A DNA stretch of 64,000 bases from Phycisphaerales bacterium Planc_01. Its GTDB lineage: Bacteria > Planctomycetota > Phycisphaerae > Sedimentisphaerales > Anaerobacaceae. Position numbers and translations under genes: made by a program. Positions 11,048-23,748 of the stretch are shown here, piece after piece (the first letter of the stretch is position 1; every line of letters begins with the position of its first letter). The stretch covers positions 21,418-85,417 of the forward strand of contig LVBB01000099.1 of the NCBI GenBank assembly GCA_001603075.1. Reading direction: 5' to 3'. The notes beneath the pieces were generated by a model, which worked only from the letters and a program-made list of their open reading frames with translations, had not been told where the DNA came from and did not search any database.

Positions 11048-11115
11048 ACGAATGGCACGAAGATAAGCGGCGCTGGTTCGCCGGGTGCGCTCGGGGGCGA
11101 GGCATGCCTCGCCCC
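11048..11115. repeat. dispersed repeat, copy A, with terminal palindrome
   Basis: A 68-nt unit starting ACGAATGGCA and ending in a perfect 22-bp palindrome at 11094-11115 (GGGGCGAGGCA followed by its reverse complement). About 60 nt are nearly identical to 14481-14546. It lies in the intergenic space downstream of the SGNH gene. Transcribed, the palindrome would fold into a very stable stem, as in REP/MITE-like elements. Confidence 0.75.
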
Positions 11116-11258
11116 TGCTTGCGCGACCTGATGGGCCACAGTGTTTTGTCCCGATCCGACGGTTTCGCACGCGCCATCCTCGGACGGGGTAATCCGGTGA
11201 CACCATAGAATGGCGGTCCCCGTTGTGCCCCGTTCTCTCTGTTGCGTGGGGTGCGTCC

Positions 11259-17974: not shown

Positions 17975-17995
17975 TCTCGACAGGAGAAGCATCAC

Positions 17996-18898
17996 ATGAA
18001 ACGCCTGATCGGTCGGCGGAGCTTTCTGGGGCTGATGGGAACGACGGTCGCTCTGCGCAGTATTCGCGCCGCCTCCACGGGACTTCCTGTGGAGCCGACG
18101 GATGCGCCCGCATGGCAGATGCGGCTGTCCGCTTCCTCGATCTGTTTCTCCGAACTGACCATCGAACAGGCCTGCGAGCGAATCGCCGACCTGGGCTTTG
18201 AGGCCATCGACATCTGGTCGGCCCATGAGGGTTGCCCGCATCTGGATGACGTCGCATCGCGGCTTGGGCCGGAGGGGCTCAAGGAACTGCTGACAAAGCA
18301 CAAACTGAAGCTGTGCGGCTTCTCGGTATACCAGGGCGGCTACGCCCGCTACGCGGAGTTGCTGGGCCAAGCCGGAGGCGGCGTCGCCGTGCAGGGCAGT
18401 GCACCTCCCGGCGAGCCGCAGGAGCTCAAGGCCCGGATGCAACAGTTCCTCGAAGGTCTGAAGCCCCTGGTCGACTTGGCGGAGAAGCACAACTCATACC
18501 TGGCGATCGAGAACCACGGCGATGCCCTTCTGGATTCGCTCGATTCGCTCGAAGCATTCGTCGAGGCCAACAGGTCGCCGCGACTGGGGATCGCCCTGGC
18601 TCCCTACCACCTCCAGGGGCGGCAAGCCTCCGTGCCACAGGCCATTCGCATCTGCGGATCGCAACTGTTCTTCTTCTATGCCTGGCAGCAGCAGGCCGAC
18701 GTGAAGCAGCTTCCGGGCGTTGGCTCGACGGACATGATGCCGTGGGTCCGTGCCCTGGCCGAGATTCGCTATCGCGGATGTGTCAATCCCTTCATGCATG
18801 GACATCCGGGAACGGACGTGATGGTGGCGAATCTCGCTGTGGCCCGAGACTACCTGAGGGACTGCCACGCGCAAATCCGCGAGACGACGAAGCCATAG
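17996..18898 (+). CDS. Tat-exported xylose-isomerase-like TIM-barrel protein
   Basis: A 300-residue precursor with signal IGRRSFLGLMGTTVAL (twin arginines). The mature part matches the AP_endonuc_2/sugar-phosphate isomerase-like fold: MRLSASSICFSELTIEQACERIADLGFEAIDIW at the start, then KLKLCGFSVYQ, SYLAIENHGD (Glu and His at a strand end, likely metal ligands), RLGIALAPYH and GCVNPFMHGHPG. Known relatives include inosose dehydratases, sugar epimerases and the partners of 3-keto-glycoside pathways. AGGAG precedes the ATG. It is almost certainly co-transcribed with the Gfo/Idh gene and may act on its product. The exact reaction is not determined. Confidence 0.8.
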   Translation: MKRLIGRRSFLGLMGTTVALRSIRAASTGLPVEPTDAPAWQMRLSASSICFSELTIEQACERIADLGFEAIDIWSAHEGCPHLDDVASRLGPEGLKELLTKHKLKLCGFSVYQGGYARYAELLGQAGGGVAVQGSAPPGEPQELKARMQQFLEGLKPLVDLAEKHNSYLAIENHGDALLDSLDSLEAFVEANRSPRLGIALAPYHLQGRQASVPQAIRICGSQLFFFYAWQQQADVKQLPGVGSTDMMPWVRALAEIRYRGCVNPFMHGHPGTDVMVANLAVARDYLRDCHAQIRETTKP

Positions 18899-18926
18899 GG
18901 GCTTCCACTGCGGCCCATCGCGAGGT

Positions 18927-20153
18927 CTATTCCACCGTCCACAGGGTGAGTGTCTCTTTGTCCTTCACATAGATTCTGCTTCCTGCCACGACGGGGTAGG
19001 CATACACCTGCTCCTGGGCGATCTTGTATCGGGCCAGTTCCGTGTACGCCTTGTCGCTTGGCGCGATCACGAGAAGCTCGGAAACCGGCAGGGCCAGCAG
19101 GACGGGGCCGACATCGATCACCGTTCCGAACCGGCCGTATCTGACTGTATCGGTCCAGAGCGTCTGCCCGTCGCGGGCGCTCAGGCAGTAGATGTTGTTG
19201 TCCGGATCGGAGATGCCGAACAGCAGGCCGTTCTTCAGGACCGGCGTGTTGTACCCGCCGCCGATGTCTTCGTTGCTCCACACCTCCGTGACGGCGTAGT
19301 CTTCGCCCTTCTTCTCGATCTTGACGGCCTTCGTGCCGGTTCCCTGCCCCGTGTAGATCACGGTCTGCCCATCCACAATCGGGGTGGTGGAACTGTAGAA
19401 CCTCTGGCGAAGGGGCGTCGCGGCTTTCCACAGGAGCTTGCCGTCGGCGACAGCGATGCCGACGAGGTCTGTCTCGGCGTGCACAACGAGCGTCTGGACG
19501 TCGTCGAGCATCATCAGAACAGGCGACGAGTACGTCGGACCCGCGTCGGACCACTTCCATTTCAGATCACCTGTGCCCAGGTCGTATGCCATGATGGCGC
19601 CGGCGCCCTCTTTGCCGAGATGAGCGATGCACAAGCCCTCCACGACGATGGGTGACATCGCGGCGTAGAATCGCGGCCATGCGCCTGGGAACTCGTCCCT
19701 GGTCCAGAGGACGTTGCCGGTGCCGGCATCCAGGCACGAGAGCACACCGGCGACCCCGAGAGTCACGACCTTTCCATCCACGACCGTAGGTGAGCTTCGG
19801 GGTCCGGCATGCTGGGCAGGCCCTCCCGTCACGCGCGGCGCCGGATGCTTGTCGCGCCACAACTCCTTGCCGTCCTCGGCGCGGAGGCACAGCGCGACTT
19901 CCTCGTCGCCCTGTCGAGCGAAGACGTACAACCTCTCGCCCACCAGGGCGGGCGTCGCGTCGCCCAGGCCCACCGTCACCGTCCACCGGCGCGTCAGCTC
20001 CTTGGGCCAGGTCGGGGGTACGGCAAACGCACTGACCTTCGCGTCCCGGTTCGGCCCGCGCCATTGAGGCCAGTCCTGCCCCCAGGCACCACTGGCTGCC
20101 AGTACAGCCGCACAACCCGCCAACACGACTATTCTCTGACTCGTGGCATCCAT
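18927..20153 (-). CDS. secreted PQQ-like beta-propeller protein
   Basis: A 408-residue precursor with a signal peptide ending ASGAWG-QDW. The mature N-terminus DWPQWRGPNRDAKVS is the typical opening of planctomycete outer-membrane assembly/PQQ-like beta-propellers. Several blades repeat the quinoprotein pattern of a conserved W after G-x-x-L, for example AEDGKELWRDK, AGTGNVLWTRD, LGTGDLKWKWS, VADGKLLWKA and ARDGQTLWTD. No quinone-binding or calcium-binding residue can be confirmed, so it may be a structural WD-like scaffold (BamB-type) rather than a dehydrogenase. The start ATG at 20153 has AGGAG seven bases upstream. It converges on the TIM-barrel gene with 28 nt between stops. Confidence 0.8.
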   Translation of the reverse strand: MDATSQRIVVLAGCAAVLAASGAWGQDWPQWRGPNRDAKVSAFAVPPTWPKELTRRWTVTVGLGDATPALVGERLYVFARQGDEEVALCLRAEDGKELWRDKHPAPRVTGGPAQHAGPRSSPTVVDGKVVTLGVAGVLSCLDAGTGNVLWTRDEFPGAWPRFYAAMSPIVVEGLCIAHLGKEGAGAIMAYDLGTGDLKWKWSDAGPTYSSPVLMMLDDVQTLVVHAETDLVGIAVADGKLLWKAATPLRQRFYSSTTPIVDGQTVIYTGQGTGTKAVKIEKKGEDYAVTEVWSNEDIGGGYNTPVLKNGLLFGISDPDNNIYCLSARDGQTLWTDTVRYGRFGTVIDVGPVLLALPVSELLVIAPSDKAYTELARYKIAQEQVYAYPVVAGSRIYVKDKETLTLWTVE

Positions 20154-20267
20154 AGCACTTCTCCTGAAAGGATGATCGATTGACGGAATCCTGATCCCGG
20201 GCCCAGCCCGCCTGTTGCCCACATGCCCGATCGCGGGTCTGGCGCGTGGAGGCCGTGGGACCAAAAG

Positions 20268-21077
20268 TCACAGCGAGTTCGGCGCCGTGGCCAGAGTGTC
20301 AGGGTGCCGGTCGGACAGCGAGGTGTGGCAACTGCCGCATGCCATTCTACCCAGCACGTCCTTCTGTTCGCCATCTCGCCCATGACAAGCGTTGCACCGT
20401 CCCACCTGCGGATCGGCGATCATCGAACGAGGGGCCTGTCCCGACACGCGCTCGTTGAGCACGATGACGGTCCGCCTGGCGGTATCGGCCGTGAGACGCG
20501 CGCACCGCTCCATGTGCTCCTTGCCCGCCACGGGATATCCGGAAGCCTTGCTCCACAGAGCTACCGAGGGATGGCATAGAACCGAGCGAGCGACGGACCC
20601 CGGCATCGGCATATCCAGCCTGGGCCTGACGGGAACGTACACGGGCAGTTCCGCCTGTTCGTACCACAGGAACACCTGGCTGGTCAGGCTCACCTGCTGC
20701 TCTCTTGCGGATGCAAAAAGTGCGATCACCGCCGCCGCACCGTTGAGAGCACCGCACAGAGAGCCCCAGCTCGCGACTCCGCCGGCGCCATAAGTCATCA
20801 TCGAGCATGGGAAAGACCGATAGGGTTCGCCATATCGCTCAGCCAGTTGCCAGACGATGCCCTTGAAAACGCCGTACATGCAGTGGCCGTCGTAGTGATA
20901 ATGATAGGCCCGCTCGGCCGTTGTCTCGGGGTCCAGCTCATGATAGGGCCACGGGACCATATCACGACCCGTTTCGCTTTGCGTGCTCTTTCTCTCCGCC
21001 GGCGCGCAGGACGACAGGATGCAGACCCCCGCCGCAATGCCTGCGGCACTGAACGCCTCTCTTCGCGTCAATTGCAT
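20268..21077 (-). CDS. split-Soret-like cytochrome c, Tat lipoprotein
   Basis: A 269-residue precursor. The start MQLTRREAFSAAGIAAG has a twin-arginine pattern, followed by a lipobox (I-L-S-S-C, Cys24), so the protein should be lipid-anchored after Tat export. The core contains HCMYGVFKGIVWQLAERYG, YGAGGVASWGSLCGALNGAAA and LYHPSV-type segments typical of the C_GCAxxG_C_C/split-Soret family. Two c-type haem sites lie at the C-terminus: CNACH and CGSCH. In Desulfovibrio such proteins hold two haems with an unusual stacked arrangement; the physiological partner is unknown. GGAG precedes the ATG. An envelope electron-transfer role is inferred; the partner is not encoded next to it. Confidence 0.8.
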   Translation of the reverse strand: MQLTRREAFSAAGIAAGVCILSSCAPAERKSTQSETGRDMVPWPYHELDPETTAERAYHYHYDGHCMYGVFKGIVWQLAERYGEPYRSFPCSMMTYGAGGVASWGSLCGALNGAAAVIALFASAREQQVSLTSQVFLWYEQAELPVYVPVRPRLDMPMPGSVARSVLCHPSVALWSKASGYPVAGKEHMERCARLTADTARRTVIVLNERVSGQAPRSMIADPQVGRCNACHGRDGEQKDVLGRMACGSCHTSLSDRHPDTLATAPNSL

Positions 21078-21392
21078 GTCCCGGTCTCCAGCACCCAATC
21101 GCCCGTTCGCTGCTCCGCATCCTGGTGCGGCGTCGGCACAGTCCGAAAGACGCAGCGCCACTGCCCGAAGCCCCTGCGACACCGTAGAGCGGCCCGGCCC
21201 GGATCCCAACGACCGGGTCTCAGAGTACAAGCGGGCCCACTGCCTGTCAATCCACGATTCTCCAGCGGACCTCATCGAAATTGCCCCGCGTGGAGCAGTC
21301 TCGATGACGCCGGGGCAGTGAAGCAGTCGCACATGCCTTGAGCCGTGGTTCCGCCGCTCGCCCGGCGTCGCGTCACGAATCGGATTCCATTC
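21078..21392. other. divergent intergenic stretch with no gene seen
   Basis: About 315 nt between the cytochrome start and the asnA-like promoter. Frames on both strands are open but GC-biased and without ribosome-binding sites. No repeat or hairpin of note. Confidence 0.35.
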
Positions 21393-21420
21393 TTGACGTT
21401 GTCCATCTTCATGATAACAT
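21393..21420 (+). promoter_or_regulatory. candidate promoter of the asnA-like gene
   Basis: TTGACG (21393-21398), a 16-nt spacer and TAACAT (21415-21420). The expected start leaves a leader of about 45 nt to the ATG at 21473. Moderate match only. Confidence 0.45.
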
Positions 21421-21472
21421 TCGGTGAGCGTGCGACACGATAGAAATGCGCCCGCAGGCCCAGGAGATGGCC

Positions 21473-22309
21473 ATGCACGACAAGAAAGCTGACCTGGTCG
21501 GTCCCGGAATCGGCGACTATGCCGAACTTGAAAAGATCCTCCCGCACGACTACCACTCCCTCCTGTCACCCAAAGAAACGCAGATCGCTACGTACGCGCT
21601 GAAGGACTACATCGAGCAGAACCTCTGCAAGGAGCTCAACCTCATCCGAGTCACGGTCCCTTTGATCGTGGACGTCAGCAGCGGCGTCAACGACGATCTC
21701 GATCGCGACGGCTCGCGCACCCCGGTTCGCTTCCGCATCTCGAACGACCACAGCAAGAATCCCGTCGACGCCGAGGTCGTTCAGGCGGCCACGAAATGGA
21801 AACGCATGGCGCTCAAGCAGTTCGGCATGCAGACGGGCGAGGGCCTGGTCACGGACATGCGGGCGGTCCGCAAAGACTACTTCCTCGATCACGATCACAG
21901 CGCCTACGTAGACCAGTGGGACTGGGAACTGGCCATCACGAAGGACCAGCGAAACGTGGAGTTCCTCAAGCAGGTCGTCCGGAAGATCTGGAAGGTCCTC
22001 AAGGGGGCGGAAGAGCACGCGCAGCAGCTCTTCCCGCAGCTCAAAACGGACAAGTACCCGGATCTGCCTGACGAGCTGACCTTCCTCCACGCGGAGGAGA
22101 TTCTCGAACGATATCCCGACCTGCCCCGCCAGCAGCGGGAGACGCGGATCGCGCAGGAGTATCGGGCCGTCTTCATCATCGGCATCGGCCAGTCCCGCAC
22201 GTTCATGCTGCTGCTGAAGAAGGCCCACCTCGGTGAGGTCAGCGCGACCGTCTGGCCCGGAATCCTCAAAGAGATGTGCAGGAAGAAGAACATCCACGTG
22301 ATCGAGTAG
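21473..22309 (+). CDS. asnA: AsnA-type aspartate-ammonia ligase with internal deletion
   Basis: A 278-residue protein; normal AsnA is about 330-350. It aligns along its length with ammonia-dependent asparagine synthetase: SPKETQIATYALKDYIEQNL, KWKRMALKQFG, TGEGLVTDMRAVRKD, HSAYVDQWDWE (the family signature, 142-152) and EEILERYPDLPRQQRE. At residues 236-240 the sequence jumps from AVFIIGIG straight to GQSRTFMLLLKKAHLGEV. In E. coli about 75-80 residues lie between these blocks, including the conserved GLNGDILVW and SSMGIRVD active-site segments. The frame is preserved. AGGAG precedes ATG 21473 by six bases. The deletion probably abolishes normal catalysis; it could be a dying gene or a repurposed fold. 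Confidence 0.82.
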   Translation: MHDKKADLVGPGIGDYAELEKILPHDYHSLLSPKETQIATYALKDYIEQNLCKELNLIRVTVPLIVDVSSGVNDDLDRDGSRTPVRFRISNDHSKNPVDAEVVQAATKWKRMALKQFGMQTGEGLVTDMRAVRKDYFLDHDHSAYVDQWDWELAITKDQRNVEFLKQVVRKIWKVLKGAEEHAQQLFPQLKTDKYPDLPDELTFLHAEEILERYPDLPRQQRETRIAQEYRAVFIIGIGQSRTFMLLLKKAHLGEVSATVWPGILKEMCRKKNIHVIE

Positions 22310-22363
22310 AGACATCCATCGGCCCTGTTGCGGCATGAGGATGGTTCGAACGGAGCGCACGTT

Positions 22364-23401
22364 ATGAGAAACACGACGATCTACGCGACGGGATTCCTGT
22401 TCCTTCTCTCGGCCGGCTTCCTGAAGATGGTCGGAACCGGGCGGGCGCGAGGCAACACCGGCGACACGTTGGAGGACGCGACCATACGCGCCCTGATCGG
22501 CGCCGTCGATCGCGAGCGGATGTCCAGGGATCTTTTCCATCTGTCCAAGGACCCGCTGCCCTTTCGCAAGCTGAACCTGACGCTGGGCGGCCACGAGAAG
22601 AATACGCTCCACGAGGCCGACGACTATCTTGCCGGCCGGCTGGAGGCGAGGGGATACCGCGTCGAGCGCGAAGGCGTCCAGGTGCAGGCGTTTCGTTGCG
22701 ATACGAGCAAGCCCAAGCAGCATCAGTACTCGCCTCCCAAACCCGAAGACCCGTGGTATACGGCATACAATCTCTATGCCGAGAAGAAAGGCCGCTCGTA
22801 TCCGGACCGCATCATCGTGGTGCTGGCACACAAGGATTCGCAGAGCTGGGTCGATTCGCCGGGCGCCAACGACAATGCCATTGGCACCGTCGGTGTGCTG
22901 GAGATGGCGCGCGTCCTCGCGGAATACCCTTCCGAGAGCACCATCCGGTTTCTCTTCTGCAACGAGGAACACACGCCCTGGACCAGCCGGGCCGCGGCGC
23001 AGAAGGCCAAGTCGCGCGGAGACAACATCGTCGCCGTGTTCAACCTGGACGGCATCGGCGCCAAGACCGCCGAGCAGACGGCCGCGGGAAAGAAGACCAA
23101 CGTAACCGCCTATACAAAGCCGGAAGGCCGGCATCTGGCCGTGCTGATGGCCGAGGTGAACGCCCGATACTCGATCGGTCTCGAACAGCGCATGGCCGAG
23201 CGGTCCCAGCCGGGCGATGACGATGGCTCGTTCGTCCTGGCCGGCTACCCTGCGGCGGTGATCAACATCGGGTCCTGGCCGTATGGCGATCCCAACTATC
23301 ACGCCGAAGGGGATATCCCGGAAGCGTGTGACGTCGACAACGCCGCAATGACCGTGCAGGCGACGCTGGCCGCAGTGCTGACCCTCGACCGTCGCCTTTA
23401 G
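22364..23401 (+). CDS. exported M28-family metallopeptidase
   Basis: A 345-residue protein with an N-terminal hydrophobic segment (IYATGFLFLLSAGF) that may be a signal or anchor. The catalytic domain shows the M28 two-zinc pattern: VLAHKDSQSW (His ligand), SPGANDNAIGTVGVLEMARVL (bridging Asp), FLFCNEEHTPW (catalytic Glu and Glu ligand), FNLDGIG (Asp ligand) and DPNYHAEGD (His ligand). Known members are aminopeptidases and carboxypeptidases of the envelope. The start ATG at 22364 has GGAG upstream; an ATG at 22328 in frame lacks one and would displace the signal. It follows the asnA-like gene by 55 nt on the same strand and may share its transcript. Confidence 0.83.
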   Translation: MRNTTIYATGFLFLLSAGFLKMVGTGRARGNTGDTLEDATIRALIGAVDRERMSRDLFHLSKDPLPFRKLNLTLGGHEKNTLHEADDYLAGRLEARGYRVEREGVQVQAFRCDTSKPKQHQYSPPKPEDPWYTAYNLYAEKKGRSYPDRIIVVLAHKDSQSWVDSPGANDNAIGTVGVLEMARVLAEYPSESTIRFLFCNEEHTPWTSRAAAQKAKSRGDNIVAVFNLDGIGAKTAEQTAAGKKTNVTAYTKPEGRHLAVLMAEVNARYSIGLEQRMAERSQPGDDDGSFVLAGYPAAVINIGSWPYGDPNYHAEGDIPEACDVDNAAMTVQATLAAVLTLDRRL

Positions 23402-23481
23402 CCGAACACGGGACGAGCGTTGTCCTGCGCCTGCCGGCGGCACTGCGCACGGCTATGGCTCGTAGCGGAGCTTTCCCCAGC

Positions 23482-23748
23482 GGCGCGTTGGACGCGCTGG
23501 ATGTCCGGGTTGTCACCGACGGCGATATAGGCCTGGTAGTTGCCCTCCAGCCGGGACACCGTCACGGTCCGCTGGTCCTGCCACTTCCAATACTCGGCGT
23601 GGCCGTCGGCGAAGCTGAAGTTCGTCCCGTCGCCGTGGCGGGTCGGCGGAATGTCCCACCATGAGGCCTGGTTGTCGAAGATGGTCCAGCTCTGGGTGCC
23701 GATCTTGTCCTCGTCGACGTAGACCAAACGCTCGCCCGGCCGCGACAA
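23482..23748 (-). pseudogene. remnant of an H-X9-DG type pseudopilin (DUF1559-like)
   Basis: Only the C-terminal third survives. RPGERLVYVDED and TRHGDGTNFSFADGHAEYW give the H-X9-DG motif typical of planctomycete pseudopilins; NPDIQRVQRA matches their usual end, after which the frame runs into unrelated sequence. The prepilin leader, the N-terminal helix and most of the globular domain are absent; the truncation point is just before the M23-PKD stop. No ribosome-binding site precedes the fragment. Confidence 0.65.

Follow-up and report, generated by a model that had tools for sequence, protein, structure and literature searches.

An AsnA-type gene (asnA1) in the 64,000-nucleotide stretch of DNA analyzed here (referred to as the window) has lost 98 codons in frame. 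Our data indicate that asnA1, a redundant and patchily distributed AsnA paralogue, has quite probably become a loss-of-function allele in the recent past, by deletion between short direct repeats. The features concerned are the following:

21473 to 22309, + strand: asnA1, encoding a 278-aa AsnA-type aspartate--ammonia ligase from which 98 codons are missing in frame (length of orthologues, 375-376 aa)
22180 to 22189, + strand: deletion junction, with one remaining copy of CGGCATCGGC (two copies in the intact orthologue)
21366 to 21472, + strand: leader upstream of asnA1, conserved along with it in the congener G002 (93%) and in the confamilial genomes G029, G036, and G102 (approximately 85%)

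RESULTS

asnA1 lacks 98 codons between copies of a direct repeat

The asnA1 open reading frame on the + strand includes its stop codon within the coordinates above, and its frame and both ends are intact; the product begins with MHDKKADLVGPGIGDY and ends with KNIHVIE. A second in-frame ATG lies upstream at 21446, but the alignments of almost all relatives start at 21473 or at most three codons away from it. The leader probably holds expression signals, judging from its conservation, and no Rfam RNA or riboswitch was matched in it or anywhere else in the window. The protein matches PF03590 (AsnA) with an E value of 2.7e-69 and 233.9 bits (cut-off, 27), covering only positions 3-196 of the 228 in the profile. 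This match and the AsnA chains in the PDB agree with an initial annotation of the reading frame as an AsnA-type asparagine synthetase. The short protein scores 166.2 bits against TIGR00669, below the equivalog cut-off of 292.8 bits, whereas the intact orthologue scores 331 bits and AsnA2, a second AsnA in the same genome, scores 412 bits, both above it.

Alignment to the AsnA structure 9v83 splits in two (query 21-241 with 9v83 3-214, and query 237-276 with 9v83 305-344). E. coli 11AS and T. brucei 4LNS give the same two-piece alignment, and the pieces overlap at the protein's own GIG. Over these two stretches the asnA1 protein resembles known AsnA (PF03590/TIGR00669; E. coli 11AS/12AS, T. brucei 4LNS, and 9V83) and keeps the motifs GVND, KWKR, YVDQWDWE, and motif-3 GIGQSR. 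Unlike known AsnA, it is without the 98 residues from GIG to GIGQSR, which include R-x-x-D-Y-D-D-W, G-L-N-G-D-I, and S-M-G-I-R-V.

The closest orthologue, in the congener G002 (L004), encodes 376 aa and is 94% identical to the asnA1 protein. We found that the two genes align at the DNA level with a single gap of exactly 294 bp, or 98 codons. The clean in-frame deletion proposed in the initial annotation is thus borne out, although its size, given there as approximately 75-80 residues, was too low; the GLNGDILVW and SSMGIRVD blocks described as lost do fall within the missing piece, as GLNGDILVW and (S/T)SMGIRV. In G002 both edges of the gap are an exact 10-bp direct repeat, CGGCATCGGC (L004 2208-2217 and 2502-2511), spaced 294 bp apart; the intact gene, 1131 bp long, has just one other pair of exact 10-bp direct repeats. 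The GGC ATC GGC codons previously noticed at the junction are the core of this repeat. These data support the proposal that short direct repeats bounded the in-frame deletion. The 98 codons would be excised by replication slippage or by microhomology-mediated recombination of the two CGGCATCGGC words, and we infer such a slippage mechanism.

The lost segment holds invariant residues and central strands

The missing stretch accounts for most of the substrate-binding half of the enzyme. In a comparison with 45 other AsnA proteins, we found that 21 of the invariant columns lie inside the lost segment. These include (L066 numbering) H248, R251, D254, Y255, D256, D257, W258, N274, G275, D276, I277, E289, S292, G294, and R296, and with them the blocks R-x-x-D-Y-D-D-W and N-G-D-I. 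The beta-carboxylate of the substrate is expected to be held by an Asp-Gln pair, D222-Q118 in L. major (PMC3532385). In alignment to E. coli AsnA, L066 D256 corresponds to E. coli D219, the partner of Q116. The asnA1 protein keeps the Gln of YVDQWDWE, the Asp of DYDDW is deleted, and a motif-3-like GIGQSR with its Arg is kept (GIGQSRTFM). The earlier description of a deleted active-site core needs correction in that part of the active site survives, since motif 3 and the Gln of YVDQWDWE remain.

AlphaFold2 modeled the intact relative with a pLDDT of 92 and a pTM of 0.92, and the short protein with a pLDDT of 85 and a pTM of 0.83. Strands 232-236, 261-296, and 331-337 of the intact relative are missing from the short model, in which the antiparallel sheet of the class II synthetase-like fold is incomplete. 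The best structural matches of the short model are AsnA (4lns, 11as), with a TM score of approximately 0.7 by query length. AlphaFold2 is insensitive to damage of this kind and tends to rebuild family folds, and we set the short model aside as proof of folding. The deletion would remove the middle strands of the sheet together with the Asp that pairs with Gln; with both lost, the short protein can hardly make asparagine. We infer with confidence that the asnA1 product is without asparagine synthetase activity.

The deletion is found in one genome and appears recent

We questioned whether relatives share the deletion. Across 89 family genomes, all translated complete orthologues are 375-376 aa; the other listed family orthologues are cut by contig ends or N runs (e.g., G022), and one, in G098, is broken differently. 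The deletion is absent from the complete orthologues found (approximately 30 in the GTDB family and 37 across phyla), and neither the 89 family genomes nor the best 80 loci in genome_contigs share it. The G098 copy (C112, L174) was broken independently: the same gene is likewise disabled, but its lesions are a Trp codon changed to TAG and a frameshift ahead of GIGQSR rather than a 294-bp deletion. This copy fits the dispensability of asnA1, and its lesions are also open to assembly error.

asnA1 belongs to a long AsnA subfamily (375-376 aa, with an N-terminal KADLAGPGI extension) present in Phycisphaerales and many phyla. It is 57-94% identical to these proteins and shares their extension and C-terminus, but the other complete members are full length. 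Those in genome_contigs span 1119-1128 bp, all at full length, and occur in Acidobacteria, Zixibacteria, Thermoplasmata, Flavobacteriales, and others. Members of the subfamily (L066-L104), with identities of 57-91%, are dispersed across archaea and numerous bacterial phyla, and this scatter suggests that the subfamily may undergo frequent lateral transfer.

Among the retained codons, polarized changes number 8 non-synonymous and 10 synonymous on the window branch and 6 and 13 on the G002 branch; the two branches do not differ significantly (Fisher p 0.51), and the deletion would be too young for these counts to reveal relaxed selection on the window branch. A fully neutral window branch would give approximately 68 non-synonymous changes, compared to the 8 observed. 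As a rough bound (Nei-Gojobori and Poisson), the unconstrained share of the branch is at most approximately 20%. The remainder of asnA1 has no decay beyond the deletion. The deletion, if real, is accordingly dated by these substitution counts as recent. The very recent loss considered in the initial annotation is supported, since the deletion is a singleton, the gene has not decayed further, and few non-synonymous changes have accumulated.

Other routes to asparagine are present in the genome

AsnA2 (G000:C48) is approximately 46% identical to the asnA1 protein and keeps 73 of 75 invariant columns. The search for asnB or an amidotransferase route that had been proposed thus found, besides this intact AsnA2, two strong Asn_synthase (AsnB-type) matches as well as AsnRS and GatB. 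Of six genomes in the genus, five were found to have AsnA2, but asnA1 is confined to the source genome (G000) and G002; the congeners G001 and G005 are without it. The cell would tolerate the deletion because it still has an intact AsnA and AsnB-type enzymes, and probably tRNA-dependent amidation as well. asnA1 therefore appears to be dispensable.

asnA1 lies in a patchily distributed segment

Two further features describe the surroundings of asnA1:

17975 to 23733, no strand assigned: accessory segment holding asnA1, absent from G001 and present in G002 in another genomic context and with a dS below that of the rest of the genome
22314 to 22317, no strand assigned: indel site just 3' of the asnA1 stop, where G002 has approximately 2.0 kb extra (a DUF4838 / GH67-N gene)

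Away from the asnA1 region, G001 is the genome nearest to the window (90-92%), and identity to G002 is approximately 82%. The segment is missing from G001, since matches to the window up to 17974 and from 23734 abut there with a 31-bp spacer. Genes of the segment differ from their G002 counterparts by a dS of 0.21-0.31 (asnA1, 0.21; M28 peptidase, 0.24; TIM-like gene, 0.31), compared to 0.61 for the preceding oxidoreductase gene and 0.64 for AsnA2, both outside it. On these distances, the segment was probably acquired laterally, having moved between lineages or recombined after the lineages split. Loss in G001 combined with slower evolution is possible, but it is less economical than transfer or recombination.

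The DUF4838 / GH67-N gene directly 3' of asnA1 in G002 (L147:7356-9287, - strand) is not in the window. At 23398-23748 (- strand) the window has a 116-aa C-terminal remnant of a protein with a length of 395 aa in G002 (L147 10432-11619); it is prepilin-like by eye (type II secretion / DUF1559-like) and truncated at the edge of the accessory segment. A 25-bp sequence at approximately 11094-11118 has many identical (100%) copies across congeneric genomes, in both orientations, and, given this recurrence, is probably a dispersed palindromic repeat.

DISCUSSION

We weighed three other explanations of the short gene. An assembly or strain-mixture artefact, in which the population gene is intact and the contig reflects either a misjoin or a deletion carried by a minority, is unlikely. 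The deletion is seen in one genome only, the rest of asnA1 appears to be under normal constraint, and the genome is in 162 contigs with a completeness of 97% and a contamination of 3.8%, all of which an artefact would accommodate. However, the 10-bp repeat is well below usual assembly k-mers, which makes a plain repeat collapse unlikely. The junction is clean and in frame, and we found the missing 98 codons on no other contig of the genome, only the paralogue's segment at 58% identity. The idea that the short form is the ancestral and normal contiguous one, with an insertion in the others, has a negligible chance of being right. Nothing in its favor was found, and alignment refutes it, as the family is not contiguous here and the segment is present in E. 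coli, T. brucei, and 9v83 AsnA, in the genome's own AsnA2, and in all complete orthologues.

A new role for the shortened protein, for example as a regulator or an AsnA2 dimer partner, was the other alternative raised by the initial annotation, and we consider it very improbable. The open frame and conserved leader, the little non-synonymous change over about three quarters of the protein, and the compact remnant predicted by AlphaFold2 would all suit such a role. Low dN is expected regardless of role, however, since nearly all substitutions are older than the deletion. The form is in no other genome, which leaves the shortened protein without an evolutionary record; 21 invariant residues are gone, along with strands 232-236, 261-296, and 331-337 of the intact model, and no partner or new domain was found. 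As a singleton without these residues, in a genome with other asparagine routes, the short form gives this idea no positive support. It is slightly less probable still that the 278-aa remnant is expressed, folded, and active in a non-catalytic role such as that of a regulatory partner of intact AsnA2. Against loss of function itself, the frame is open and nothing else is broken, unlike in an old pseudogene, and AlphaFold2 still folds the short protein confidently; the loss-of-function reading thus assumes that the allele is young.

Since its PF03590 score is far over the cut-off, a Pfam match alone could label such a gene a functional AsnA. The asnA1 deletion is most likely an ordinary early-stage loss of a spare gene and does not point to new biology. 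As a loss-of-function allele, asnA1 would show cleanly how the loss of a redundant gene begins, with a short-repeat deletion that precedes further decay.
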